From Planifilum fulgidum (GTDB lineage: Bacteria; Bacillota; Bacilli; Thermoactinomycetales; DSM-44946): a stretch of DNA of 51,406 nt. Positions 18,889 through 29,358 of the stretch are shown one piece after another (positions within the stretch are counted from its first letter, which is position 1; every line of letters begins with the position of its first letter). Both the position numbers and the translations under genes were made by a program. The notes beneath the pieces are model-generated. The model did no database searches. It had not been told where the DNA came from and saw nothing but the letters and a program-made list of their open reading frames with translations. The stretch lies in assembly GCF_900113175.1 (NCBI RefSeq), contig NZ_FOOK01000023.1:1-51406 (forward strand), written 5' to 3'.

Positions 18889-20040
18889 TCACCCTTCCCG
18901 CTCGATGATGGTGGCGATCGCCATGCCGAAGCCGATGCACATGGTCATCAATCCATAACGGGCTTTGCGCCGCTCCATTTCGTGCAAAAGCGTGGCGGTG
19001 ATGCGGGCGCCGCTCGCCCCCAGCGGATGGCCCAGGGCGATCGCTCCGCCGTTGACGTTCACCTTCTCCCAGGGGGCCCCGGTTTCCTTCTGCCAGGCCA
19101 GCACCACCGAAGCAAAGGCTTCATTCACTTCGAACAGATCGATATCATCCATGGTAAGGCCGGCCTTTTTCAGCACCTTCTCCGTGCAGGGAATGACGCC
19201 GGTCAACATGATCGTCGGATCCACCCCGGCGGTGGCGGTGGCGACGATCCGCGCCCGGGGCTTGAGCCCCAACTCCTCCGCTTTTTCCCGGGAGGCGACC
19301 AGCACCGCCGCCGCTCCGTCGGAAATCTGGCTGGAATTGCCGGCGGTCACCACGCCGTCCGCCTGGAAGGAGGGCTCAAGCTGCGCCATCTTTTCCAGGC
19401 TGGTGTCCGCCCGGGGCGTCTCGTCCTTCTCCATCCGGACCGTCTCCCCTTCCTCCGTCACCACGTCGATGGGAACGATCTCCCGGTCGAACCATCCTTC
19501 CCGCTGGGCGCGCAGGGCCTTTTGATGGCTTTCATAGGAGAACCGGTCCAGCTCCTCCCGGGTGAATCCCCATTGGGAGGCGATCATCTCCGCGGAGAAG
19601 CCCTGAGGAATGATCATGTACCGGTCCGTCAACTTGGAGCTGAAGTTTCCGCCGTCGCTTCCCATCGGAACGCGGCTCATGCTCTCCACCCCGGCGGCGA
19701 TGAACAGGTCGCCCATCCCGGCCATGATTTCGTGGGCCGCCTGGTTCAGGGTCTCCAGGCTGGAACCGCACATCCGGTTGGAACTGACCCCGCAAACTTC
19801 CACGGGGAAACCGGCGATCAAAGCCGCGATCCGCCCGATGTTGAACCCCTGTTCGTCGATCTGCGTGACGCAGCCCATCTTCACGTCTTCCACCCATTCC
19901 GGCTTGATCCCGTTCCGTTCCACGATGGCGGAAAGCACATGGGCCGCCATTTCGTCCGGCCGGGTCCGGCTCAGCAGCCCCTTTTTCCGGCCGATGGGCG
20001 TCCGCACGGCGTCAATGATTACAGCATCCCTCGAACTCAC
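18889..20040 (-). CDS. Acetyl-CoA acyltransferase (thiolase)
   Basis: A 383-residue thiolase. The nucleophilic Cys91 lies in NRMCGSSLET. The C-terminal motifs NVNGGAIALGHPLGASGAR (catalytic His) and TMCIGFGMA (second Cys) are present; the last is GFG rather than the more usual GGG. The enzyme cleaves 3-ketoacyl-CoA in beta-oxidation or condenses acetyl-CoA. Its neighbours (SDR, CoA-transferase, acyl-CoA dehydrogenase) point to degradation. Confidence 0.92.
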   Translation of the reverse strand: MSSRDAVIIDAVRTPIGRKKGLLSRTRPDEMAAHVLSAIVERNGIKPEWVEDVKMGCVTQIDEQGFNIGRIAALIAGFPVEVCGVSSNRMCGSSLETLNQAAHEIMAGMGDLFIAAGVESMSRVPMGSDGGNFSSKLTDRYMIIPQGFSAEMIASQWGFTREELDRFSYESHQKALRAQREGWFDREIVPIDVVTEEGETVRMEKDETPRADTSLEKMAQLEPSFQADGVVTAGNSSQISDGAAAVLVASREKAEELGLKPRARIVATATAGVDPTIMLTGVIPCTEKVLKKAGLTMDDIDLFEVNEAFASVVLAWQKETGAPWEKVNVNGGAIALGHPLGASGARITATLLHEMERRKARYGLMTMCIGFGMAIATIIEREG

Positions 20041-25022: not shown

Positions 25023-25059
25023 AGAAAAGCGGGTCCTGTGCGGGACCCGCTTTTCTTTA
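25023..25059. terminator. Bidirectional terminator between ctaG and M50 protease
   Basis: AGAAAAGCGGGTCC pairs with GGGACCCGCTTTTCT (25023-25056). It serves the convergent ctaG and M50-protease genes. Confidence 0.85.
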
Positions 25060-26181
25060 TCCCTGCACCGCGGCGGGAGACTGCAGGGGCGCCTGCCCGA
25101 GCACGGCCAACATGAAAATGAGGAAGGCGGCCAAGCCGAAATAGGCGATGCCGTAACCGACACGGGTCAGGGGAGGCACCGAATAATACTCTTCGCTCTT
25201 CAGCAGGCCGGGACTCTCCTCGGAGGACGGGATGTAATCCACCAGCAGATGGAGGCGGACCTTCTCCCCGTCCGTCCCGGCGGGTTGGGTTCGAACCAGC
25301 CGGACCCGTTCGACAGTTCCCCCAAATCCCGTGGCGGTGTGGATGACGCCCAGTCCCGGATAAGCGATCTCGAGGCGGTGCTCCCTCGTCGCCACATCGC
25401 AGAAGAGGGAAAAGGGCAAGTCCCGGCGATGCTCCTCTCCCGGAACCAAGAGGCCCGCCTCCTCAAAGGAGCGGCGCTCCACATCCACCTTGATCACGCC
25501 GGTCACCTTGTTTTGTTTCCCCCTGCGGCGGGCGACATAGAATTCCCAAAGCTGCCAGGCGAAAATCAGCCAAACCAGAAAAAGAAGCGGACTGAAGGTA
25601 TAAAGGACGAGAATGAGGCCCACCACCAGGCCCACAGCCCACAGCCAGCGGGAGATGGCCGTCACGATCCTACCCCCGTCGAGGGGATGAATCGGCAACA
25701 GGTTGAAGAGATTGATCAAAAACCCGATCGCCGCGATGGCATAGAAGGGGAGATAATCCGTCACCACCGCCAGGGCGTAACACGCAACGGCCCCCAGAGT
25801 GCCGACCAGAGGGCCGGCATAGGCGACGAACGCCTCGGTCACCGCATCCCGGGGCTGCTTCTTCAGGGTGATCAAGGCCCCGACAAAGGGGATGAAGGCC
25901 GGCGCCGACACGTCCAGTCCCTTTCGGCGGGCCGCCAGAACGTGACCCATTTCGTGGATGAAGATCATGATCACCAGGCCGATCGCCATCGTCCACGGAA
26001 AGACCAGAGCGTAGGCGCCCACCGACACCAGCATGCTGATCAGCGTTCCTCCGGCCTTCCCCAATTTCAACAGGGGCAGTATAAACTTCAATTTTCCCCC
26101 CAAGCTGAGCAGAAGGGCGGCCAGGCCTCCCGCCCATTTCCAGCCGTTCCGTCTCCCTTTCGAACGATTTTCGTCGTTCAA
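25057..26181 (-). CDS. Site-2 protease-like M50 family metalloprotease
   Basis: A 374-residue membrane zinc protease. The metal-binding HEMGH (76-80) and the third ligand in NLLPIHPLDG (160-169) are intact, on hydrophobic helices as in intramembrane proteases. Between them lies AYAGPLVGTLGA. A cytoplasmic or extracytoplasmic beta-rich domain follows (about 215-340), then one last helix. It resembles YydH/SpoIVFB-like peptidases of unknown substrate rather than RseP, as no PDZ domain is seen. The TTG at 26181 is chosen for GGGAGGA seven bases upstream; the upstream ATG lacks a ribosome site. Confidence 0.85.
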   Translation of the reverse strand: MNDENRSKGRRNGWKWAGGLAALLLSLGGKLKFILPLLKLGKAGGTLISMLVSVGAYALVFPWTMAIGLVIMIFIHEMGHVLAARRKGLDVSAPAFIPFVGALITLKKQPRDAVTEAFVAYAGPLVGTLGAVACYALAVVTDYLPFYAIAAIGFLINLFNLLPIHPLDGGRIVTAISRWLWAVGLVVGLILVLYTFSPLLFLVWLIFAWQLWEFYVARRRGKQNKVTGVIKVDVERRSFEEAGLLVPGEEHRRDLPFSLFCDVATREHRLEIAYPGLGVIHTATGFGGTVERVRLVRTQPAGTDGEKVRLHLLVDYIPSSEESPGLLKSEEYYSVPPLTRVGYGIAYFGLAAFLIFMLAVLGQAPLQSPAAVQG

Positions 26182-26409
26182 ACCATCGTCCTCCCGGTAT
26201 GCTCTGTTTTGGCTCCCCTTCATGTGCCACGGGGAGACCTTCGACAAAAACAGCCTCCATTCCCTTTTTTTCATCGGGATCGCTCACGTTCATGATACCC
26301 TCTTGAGGCGGATTCAAACAATCAAAAAAATGATGAATCTCATCCGTCCGCAAACGCGGCCCCCTCCTGCCGCCCAAGCAAAGAAAGACCGCGCGTGAGA
26401 CTTATAAAC

Positions 26410-26927: not shown

Positions 26928-27176
26928 TTACTTGCCCACCGCCTCTTTCATCAAGCGGGCGACTTCCCCCTCTTCGGCATGGCGACCGAGCTCCTTTTTG
27001 GAAAAGATCCGCTTTCCGTCCACATCCACCTCGAAGACTCCGCCGCTGGAGGGAACCAGGATCATTTCCCCGATCTGCCCGCGAAACTCGTTGAACAACT
27101 CCTCCGCCACACGGGCGGCATAGGGAGCGTAGTTTCAAGCCATGCAGAACTCGATGCGCACCCGGTATTTGTCCAT
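26928..27176 (-). CDS. SelW/Rdx-family probable selenoprotein (in-frame UGA)
   Basis: Read from ATG 27176, the frame gives MDKYRVRIEFCMA, then TGA at 27137-27135, then NYAPYAARVAEELF and onward to a TAA at 26930-26928: 82 residues if TGA is decoded as selenocysteine at position 14. The downstream part (LVPSSGGVFEV, IFSKKELGRHAEEGEV) is the Rdx/SelW/SelT thioredoxin-like fold, whose CxxU/CxxC redox motif lies exactly here (C11-M-A-U14). AAGGGGTG precedes the ATG at good spacing. Just after the TGA is a hairpin fitting a bacterial SECIS. A naive annotation would truncate it to a 60-residue ORF from 27110. The redox partner is unknown; SelW-like proteins bind glutathione or thioredoxin. Confidence 0.85.
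27099..27137 (-). promoter_or_regulatory. Putative bacterial SECIS element
   Basis: Starting at the TGA (27137-27135), 21 bases later a stem CCGCC (27118-27114) / GGCGG (27108-27104) encloses the five-base loop CGTGT; outer bases CTCC (27127-27124) and GGAG (27102-27099) extend it across an asymmetric bulge. A small apical loop with G among its first two bases about 16-37 bases after UGA is the known bSECIS pattern. The hairpin lies inside coding sequence, as bacterial SECIS elements do. Confidence 0.6.
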
Positions 27177-27261
27177 GTCCTGTCACCCCTTGAAAAAGCG
27201 TTATCCTTCTCTTCTCCGCTGTATGCAGGGTTTCCTCCCGGGGAAATCTTATTCCCCCGAG

Positions 27262-29358
27262 TCAATTCGATTTCAACTTGGCAAGGGCCTTCTTGTAGCG
27301 GTCGTTGCCCGGTTCCAGCTTCACCGCCTTCTCCAGCGCCTTGATCGCCTCGGACTTTTTGCCCTGGGCCGTCAGGATCACCGCCAGCTGATAATGGTAA
27401 GAGGCCCGGTCGGAGTCCAGAACGATGGCCCGCTCCACCGCCTGTTTCGCTTTTTCGAGGTCACCGTAGTAGAAACGGCTCATCGCTTCGTAATAGTAAG
27501 CCTGGGAATAGCGATCATTCAGCTTGGTGGCCGCCTGAAAGCTCTCATAGGCCTTTTTGGCCAAGGCCCGCTGCTTTTCTTTCTTCTCTTTGGCGGAGAG
27601 GCTGGAATCCTTCTCCAGAAGCTCCCGCTTTTTCAGATGGGCCAGACCGAGGGTCATCCGGTATTTTTCATTGGAATCATTGAGCTGAACCGCTTTTTCC
27701 GCATGTTCGATCGACCGGTCGATCTCGCCGAGGCGAAACAGAATGACGGCCAAATCATGGTGATACACGGCGTTGTCCGAGTCCCTCTTCACGGCCTCCC
27801 CGATCAATTCGGCCGCGGTCCTCAGATCTTTCCGGGCAATGAAAATTTTGCCCCGGTGATACAAGTAGGTGGGATTGTCCGGTTCCAGCTGCACCGACCG
27901 ATCGCTCGCCGATTCGGCGGTTTTCAGATCTTTGACGTGATAGGCGTACAAAGCCAGCAAATCATGAAGTTCCGCGTCGTCCGGGAATCGCTTGACCCCT
28001 TCTTGGAGGAGGAGGATGGCGCTCTGATAATCCCCCATCATCTGATAAAGTTCCGCCAGATGAACATAATATTCGCGCTTGCCGGGATCGGCGCTGACCG
28101 CCTTCCTCCCCATCAGGGTGGCCTGAGCTATCTGCTTGTTTTTCTTGGCTTCCACGGATTGACGGTACCATTCCGCCGCCTGTTCGGGATCCTCCTCCAC
28201 ATCCGGATCAAAGACCGCCGAGGATTTTGCATCGGCGGGATCTTTATCGGCAAAGAGCCAGTGATAGCCTCCCAGCCCGGCGAGCACCACGATACACGCA
28301 ACCAGCGCCGCCAACAACCCCTTGGATTTCCAGAAGGGCCGGGAATCGCTTGAACCGGAGGGCGGGGGTTCCCCGGAAACGGGATAGGGAGACTTTCTCC
28401 CCTCGGGAACCAGGCCGGTCCCCGCCGCCTTTTCCGCTCCCGGAACGGGGGCCGCTCCTCTCCGGACGCCCCCGGGCCCCGGAATCCGATCCGCCCCGGC
28501 CGGGAAAGGGGTGACGGACGGAGACCGCCTTTCCGCATCCTTTCCGGCGGCAGTCCCGGGCACGGCAGGAGAAGGGAAGTTCCCCTTCGCCGGTTTCGCG
28601 AATGCGGGCCCGTGCTCCTGCGGAACACCCCCCGCTTCGCCGGATGCCTTCAACAAACCGGCCTCCAGCTGGGCGAGGGACGGCCGCGCCGCGGGATCGG
28701 AGGCGAGGGCCTGCCGAATCGCCCCGTCCCACACGGCGGGGATATCCCCCCGATAGCGGCGAAGCGGCGGAATCGCAGCGCCCTCCGGCGGCGATTGACC
28801 GGTCAGCAGCCGGAAGGCCAGGCAAGCGATGCCGAAAACCCAGTGTTTTTCCACATCCGGGATCTCAAGGCCGGGCAGGCCGCCGGACGCTCCCCCGTAC
28901 AAAAAGCGGATGTTCCCCTCCGTCGTCTCCAGGATGTTGAGGGGGTCGACAACCGCATACTCCCCCTTTGGGGCCAGGCGACGGGCGTGACTGAACACCG
29001 CCGACAGCAGCCTTCGAACTTCCCCGATCGGAAGGGAGCCGGACTGAACCAGGCGATGGGCCAGCAGATTTCCCGACAAGGGGCGAAACACCCAATACAG
29101 CACACCCTCATCGACGAACGCTTCCTCCACCGGGAAAAAGGCTGCGTCATCCCTGGAAAGCATGCGGGCATCCTTTTCCGGCTTCCCGACCGCCAAAATG
29201 AAGCGCGTCGGCTGGAGCTCCCCCCGATCCGCCCCCCAGTCTCCGCTCTCCACCGCCGAATAGTACAAAACCCCTTGAACAAAAGGGAAGGCATCCAGTA
29301 CCCGATATGTATAGCCGATCCAATCCCCCGACTGCTTCATCTTCATAGGATCGCTCAA
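27262..29358 (-). CDS. Pseudokinase-like protein with transmembrane helix and TPR tail
   Basis: A 698-residue protein. Residues 1-250 resemble a Ser/Thr kinase fold without catalysis: where HRDxKPxN is expected there is VVDPLNIL (about 135-142), and DFG is replaced by YGG; no glycine-rich loop or clear ATP Lys is seen, though the late DPAARPSL segment is kinase-like. A Pro/Gly-rich linker (about 255-340) leads to one membrane helix (about 344-366), then seven or so TPR repeats (about 395-690, with pairs such as YQSAILLLQEGVKRFP). It is probably a membrane scaffold. The start is TTG or the ATG four codons later. The upstream gene is a paralogue of its kinase-like part. Confidence 0.75.
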   Translation of the reverse strand: MSDPMKMKQSGDWIGYTYRVLDAFPFVQGVLYYSAVESGDWGADRGELQPTRFILAVGKPEKDARMLSRDDAAFFPVEEAFVDEGVLYWVFRPLSGNLLAHRLVQSGSLPIGEVRRLLSAVFSHARRLAPKGEYAVVDPLNILETTEGNIRFLYGGASGGLPGLEIPDVEKHWVFGIACLAFRLLTGQSPPEGAAIPPLRRYRGDIPAVWDGAIRQALASDPAARPSLAQLEAGLLKASGEAGGVPQEHGPAFAKPAKGNFPSPAVPGTAAGKDAERRSPSVTPFPAGADRIPGPGGVRRGAAPVPGAEKAAGTGLVPEGRKSPYPVSGEPPPSGSSDSRPFWKSKGLLAALVACIVVLAGLGGYHWLFADKDPADAKSSAVFDPDVEEDPEQAAEWYRQSVEAKKNKQIAQATLMGRKAVSADPGKREYYVHLAELYQMMGDYQSAILLLQEGVKRFPDDAELHDLLALYAYHVKDLKTAESASDRSVQLEPDNPTYLYHRGKIFIARKDLRTAAELIGEAVKRDSDNAVYHHDLAVILFRLGEIDRSIEHAEKAVQLNDSNEKYRMTLGLAHLKKRELLEKDSSLSAKEKKEKQRALAKKAYESFQAATKLNDRYSQAYYYEAMSRFYYGDLEKAKQAVERAIVLDSDRASYHYQLAVILTAQGKKSEAIKALEKAVKLEPGNDRYKKALAKLKSN

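Follow-up and report, generated by a model that had tools for sequence, protein, structure and literature searches.

The window analysed here, a stretch of 51,406 nucleotides from Planifilum fulgidum (contig NZ_FOOK01000023.1, positions 1 to 51,406), carries on its minus strand a reading frame that runs from an ATG at 27176 to a TAA at 26930-26928 and is crossed by a single TGA, at codon 14 (Table 1). Both the frame and the placement of its one TGA at the U of C-M-A-U had been given, with exact coordinates, by the original prediction, which was made from the letters of the sequence. When the TGA is read through, the product has 82 residues, begins MDKYRVRIEFCMAUNYAPYAARV and contains the motif F-C-M-A-U-N. 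The neighbouring genes, for a TPR protein (27262-29358) and an M50 peptidase (25057-26274), give no hint of a substrate, and DNA similarity reaches beyond selW in a genome of the same genus and is limited to selW in six other relatives (about 1.5 kb per side compared). Genes for SCO1/SenC and for caa3 oxidase assembly (CtaG) also lie in the window and suggest that the organism is probably aerobic. One other candidate for UGA readthrough with a hairpin in the window (position 19604, plus strand) was rejected as antisense to an open reading frame at 18889-20040 that looks thiolase-like by eye.

Table 1. Coordinates of the selW features in the window and of the related genes discussed in the text
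Feature	Coordinates	Strand	Basis or remark
selW/rdx coding sequence, 82 codons including one UGA very probably read as selenocysteine, plus TAA stop	26928..27176	-	Frame, family matches, UGA-type homologues
UGA codon, residue 14, the U of C-M-A-U	27135..27137	-	
Codons of Cys11, Met12 and Ala13, the C-x-x of the CxxU motif	27138..27146	-	
60-codon ORF from GTG, callable by a finder that treats UGA as stop; without the CxxU motif	26931..27110	-	
Shine-Dalgarno-like purine-rich stretch AAGGGGTGACA 5' of ATG 27176	27181..27191	-	Judged by eye
bSECIS-like hairpin GCCGCC / loop CGUGU / GGCGGA, nucleotides 16-32 after the UGA	27103..27119	-	Covariation across homologues
Two-UGA SelW	L106 474-719 = G199:C12	-	
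Two-UGA SelW	L107 489-731 = G180:C30	-	
selD (L031 361-1415)	about C2:64360-65414		Own genome; UGA in motif GUGCK
selA	C2:65550-66914		622.6 bits; above cut-off in 1/14 control genomes
tRNA-Sec (selC)	C2:80016-80108		Rfam 68.8 bits, gathering score 47; ARAGORN anticodon TCA
selB	C2:83465-85333		360.5 bits, cut-off 242; above cut-off in 2/14 control genomes

The read-through product belongs to the Rdx family, with a domain score above the curated Pfam cut-off (PF10262; 72.3 bits, E = 3.9e-20, cut-off 22.6) and matches to NCBIfam NF041051, 'SelT/SelW/SelH family (seleno)protein' (90.2 bits, cut-off 88), and to TIGR02174 (58.2 bits, cut-off 34.2). The proposal that both sides of the TGA belong to one Rdx fold is borne out by this whole-product score. 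Of the separate parts, the segment after GTG 27110 matches Rdx positions 19-73 by itself (E = 6.1e-12), and the first 22 codons, with the TGA taken as Cys, match positions 1-17 at E = 0.011 and 16.3 bits, which is under the family cut-off of 22.6. Two of the PDB relatives are named SelW and one SelT/selW/selH, and in the one alignment shown, that to 2fa8, U14 corresponds to the second Cys of C-x-x-C. The UGA takes the second redox position of the motif C-M-A-U, and from family and CxxU motif we infer a thioredoxin-like thiol/selenol oxidoreductase.

The lack of selA, selB or selC that the original prediction had named as telling against selenocysteine decoding was not seen; together with selD, all are present in the same genome (assembly of 3.38 Mb, 62 contigs, 99.99% complete), where selD, selA, tRNA-Sec and selB lie on one contig and SelB carries SelB-wing_2 and SelB-wing_3 domains. 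The search for selC covered the window's own genome and 14 control genomes; the tRNA-Sec model gave some match in all 14 controls and one above the cut-off in five, and the own genome has a second match above the cut-off (C41:17414, 50.7 bits). A mechanical list of open reading frames begins the own selD at a later TTG (456), losing its active-site region. Among the alternatives to selenocysteine, the reading of UGA as some other amino acid (a reassigned codon, for example for Trp or Cys) fares best. In its favour, decoding to Cys would also yield an intact C-x-x-C protein, and insertion of Cys via the Sec machinery at low selenium is known in other systems. Against it stand the presence of a tRNA-Sec with selA, selB and selD, the tracking of selA by the UGA-type gene among relatives, and the use of TGA as the stop of 11 of the 13 window genes (picked by eye), an ordinary use that speaks against a reassigned Trp codon. 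We consider reassignment very improbable.

When comparing 61 genomes, the window's own and 60 relatives, we found selA above the cut-off in 20 and UGA-type SelW in 13, which amounts to 13 of the 20 selA-positive genomes against none of the 41 others (Fisher p = 1.2e-8, uncorrected for kinship). In all 13 genomes with UGA-type SelW, selB too is above its cut-off (G023 and G025 giving partial matches) and SelD has a match that contains an in-frame TGA; the SelD motif position was read in nine of these 13, the own genome included, and a second TGA in SelD, where present, lies upstream of the conserved frame. SelW is absent from seven selA-positive relatives (G008, G045, G048, G049, G051, G053 and G058). 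One of them, G008, is of the same order as the window's genome and has selA, selB and a UGA-type selD with no SelW match, and other selenocysteine use was not found in the 15 kb listed around its selA. A same-genus genome that is 67% complete has selB, and selA, SelD and SelW were not found in it. A scan of viral contigs for SelW returned 18 pattern matches, of which none was confirmed, and no relative. In a sample of 398 genomes drawn evenly from the class there were 59 Rdx matches in 55 genomes, of which 56 have an in-frame TGA (two of these have two) and three do not. Among the genomes sampled from this class, an Rdx match thus normally carries the UGA.

Across the homologous loci read, the aligned codon is TGA in 64 of 67 and a Cys codon in the other three, which is beyond chance; these loci include three genes twice, and counted per gene there are 62 TGA and two Cys codons among 64. 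The loci sharing the TGA come from many assemblies and several phyla. Five further loci, all from Pseudomonadota (28 plasmid-collection records matched), have TGC at this position. The alignment of homologues proposed earlier thus gave TGA or a Cys codon at every one of the 67 and five loci, and TGG, which had been named as a sign of sequencing error or a dead gene, at none. The 13 codons that precede the TGA show, relative to the same-genus genome, three synonymous changes and one nonsynonymous (dN/dS 0.032/0.64), and the 68 codons after it 13.5 synonymous and 6.5 nonsynonymous (dN/dS 0.042/0.37); synonymous sites are at or near saturation in more distant pairs. By these counts the frame has been kept before and after the UGA, with small numbers for the part before.

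As had been predicted, the GTG at 27110 opens a frame of 60 residues, and internal initiation there, with the UGA as a true stop, would give this shorter product alone, in a frame that holds most of the Rdx domain. Such a product would lose the CxxU motif, and the 13 upstream codons, which initiation at the GTG would leave out, show the mostly synonymous change just described (again in small numbers, from the same-genus genome). By eye, a Shine-Dalgarno-like stretch precedes ATG 27176 and none is seen before GTG 27110, and we give internal initiation hardly any credence. Equally negligible is the chance of a decayed gene or sequencing error, in which a former Cys codon became TGA by nonsense mutation or through an assembly artefact: UGA is one base from the Cys codons and a UGA-type match is missing from 48 of the 61 genomes, but the same TGA stands at the same codon throughout most homologous loci and the codons after it are under constraint, and in our view the conservation of the TGA refutes it.

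Two of the homologous loci deserve separate mention. In Thermomicrobium roseum (L070, NC_011961.1, 408227-408409), the annotated 'Rdx family protein' begins past the in-frame TGA and is without the CxxU motif, which is the kind of mis-annotation that the original prediction foresaw. A plasmid of Cytobacillus spongiae (L069, NZ_CP089998.1, 369135-372338, in a 690-kb record) has a UGA-type SelW between selD and selA, together with an Hsp20 gene that also sits between them; no gene is listed at this SelW in the gene table, which is known to have gaps.

A stem-loop with a five-base loop had been predicted to begin 16 bases after the TGA, and its 5' arm does start there, separated from the UGA by 15 nt, with a loop of 5 nt in the conserved register. 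In the window's sequence the outermost pair (G-A) is unpaired and the five inner pairs form. As restated in PMC13188914, the bSECIS model has a stem of 4-16 bp, a loop of 3-9 nt with G in the first two loop positions, a spacing of 16-37 nt and a minimum free energy of at most -7.5 kcal/mol; the conserved register here, with 5 bp, a 5 nt loop, G at position 2, 21 nt and -8.8 kcal/mol for the 17-nt hairpin, is within these limits. Taken alone, the window's sequence is ordinary: its five inner pairs were equalled by 4143 of 20000 synonymous recodings, which is not beyond chance, and the 45-nt fold has z = -1.87. The minimum-energy fold of these 45 nt is moved by one step, pairing UGCCGC with GUGGCG around a 4-nt loop (CCGU) and adding an outer 5-bp helix, and in this context the pair probability is about 0.95 for the shifted register against about 0.05 for the conserved one, which is the register taken by the 17-nt hairpin when folded by itself. 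The best selW hairpin of the readthrough scan is an alternative G-U-rich helix that differs from the conserved one.

The case for the hairpin rests on comparison, not on this single sequence. All five inner pairs are intact in 49 of 59 distinct homologous sequences, whereas 500 synonymous simulations, run with this window's codon usage for every species, gave 9.6 on average and 18 at most. Of all cells, 84.7% are paired compared with 71.9% when shuffled, and the 47 doubly changed cells compare with 12.5 in shuffles, a number reached by none of 500; as the 59 sequences are related, the cells do not count as independent events. Four pairs show a double change, a number that was matched by 172 of 500 shuffles and is not unusual. 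Sliding the partner by 1-3 columns lowers the covariation score from 0.406 to 0.058-0.133, and RNAalifold recovers the identical five pairs unprompted. All 59 sequences have G at loop position 2, and each of the 26 Ser codons in the loop is AGY (AGU in 25), while AGY makes up 26% of Ser codons in the window genes and AGU nine of 237. Because Arg, Gly and Ser alternate at this position and the choice of Ser codon is free for the protein, this bias points to selection at the RNA level. The outermost pair fails in 42 of the 59 sequences, and at least one inner pair is broken in 10: in nine the break is at columns 22-32 (A-C in seven, U-C in two), and the tenth, L022, fits only with a shifted hairpin, which it may use. 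The conserved pairs are held by the 45-nt minimum-energy fold in 37 of 59 sequences and by the 17-nt hairpin in 49. On these alignments, the five inner pairs are conserved and covary across homologues. The hairpin named in the original prediction is thus supported by the published bSECIS rules and by covariation, whereas the window's own sequence is not significant by itself and prefers the shifted register.

We conclude that the locus encodes a SelW protein of the Rdx family whose UGA at codon 14 is, with high probability, read as selenocysteine. The selenocysteine gene set of the genome, the conservation of the codon at the redox-Cys position and the covarying hairpin support the earlier suggestion that this organism decodes selenocysteine, and the frame intact on both sides of the UGA, the family and the co-occurrence with selA agree with it, all of them at the level of sequence. 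SelB with Sec-tRNA(Sec) would bind the hairpin starting 15 nt past the UGA and deliver selenocysteine at codon 14, and the finished protein would act as a redox enzyme; without selenium or SelB, the ribosome would be expected to stop after 13 residues.

Each of two genomes of one genus (G180 and G199, two of four genomes compared from their family) has a second SelW copy, in which two UGAs in frame make the motif U-T-G-U instead of C-x-x-U. The UGAs start nine bases apart, and one hairpin follows the second. The proteins of the two species are 75% identical, and of 81 codons 18 differ nonsynonymously and 29 synonymously, with both UGAs and the hairpin kept. These copies may possibly be diselenide SelW proteins. 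UxxU has been reported for a Prx-like family (PMC2398784); for SelW it was not found in the literature searched, parts of which were available in excerpt, and we make no claim that it is unpublished.

As for further selenoproteins in the window's own genome, there was no Fdh-alpha match above the cut-off (none of three matches holds a stop), and none of 11 AhpC/TSA-like matches holds a stop. Directly 3' of selA lies a glutathione-peroxidase-family gene (PF00255, L031 3029-3511) with Cys, not UGA, at what we take to be its redox position. Based on these three families, we suggest tentatively, and as a rather doubtful reading, that the lineage may keep the Sec apparatus for a minimal selenoproteome of SelW and a Sec-containing SelD. 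If so, SelW would be a main reason for keeping the trait, and the organism would offer a clean system for the bacterial role of this protein. In any case, the finding brings in a further, probably aerobic lineage, where UGA-type SelW was found only together with selA and which may be useful for testing what SelW does. It also shows a gene of this type recognised correctly from raw sequence, where annotation can truncate such genes. Knowledge of selenocysteine decoding itself is unchanged.

The original prediction held that selenocysteine use outside anaerobic Bacillota would be notable. This surprise is not supported, because the SelW-like family is published and the literature has many aerobic users of selenocysteine: in a survey covering more than 5200 organisms, 40.4% of selenocysteine users were aerobic and 35.8% anaerobic (PMC5029168), and in our own comparison selA was above the cut-off in about a third of the genomes (20/61). 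SelW-like proteins with the motif CxxU are among the most abundant marine selenoproteins and, with SelD, the most widespread ones (PMC2398784), and a 2006 count has ten SelW-like members in bacteria and lists three selenoprotein families for Firmicutes/Bacillales (PMC1794560). Literature searches for selenoprotein with Thermoactinomycetaceae and for selenocysteine with Planifilum found nothing, and those on five further names of the Thermoactinomycetaceae group found no mention of selenocysteine. Compared with Cys-type Rdx proteins of Pseudomonadota (the Sinorhizobium, Klebsiella, Azospirillum, Neorhizobium and Microvirga loci, and PDB 2fa8), the window's protein has the same domain and motif position; the five loci have TGC for TGA and are 31-34% identical to it, and they can form 2, 2, 4, 2 and 5 of the six hairpin pairs, so that the contrast in the hairpin is not clean. 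Compared with known SelW-like bacterial selenoproteins (PF10262/TIGR02174/NF041051), no structural difference was found and the host lineage is the sole difference, and they are alike in domain, in CxxU, in Sec at the second position and in a host SelD. The gene is therefore a sound and well-supported example of a known gene type and not a new phenomenon.
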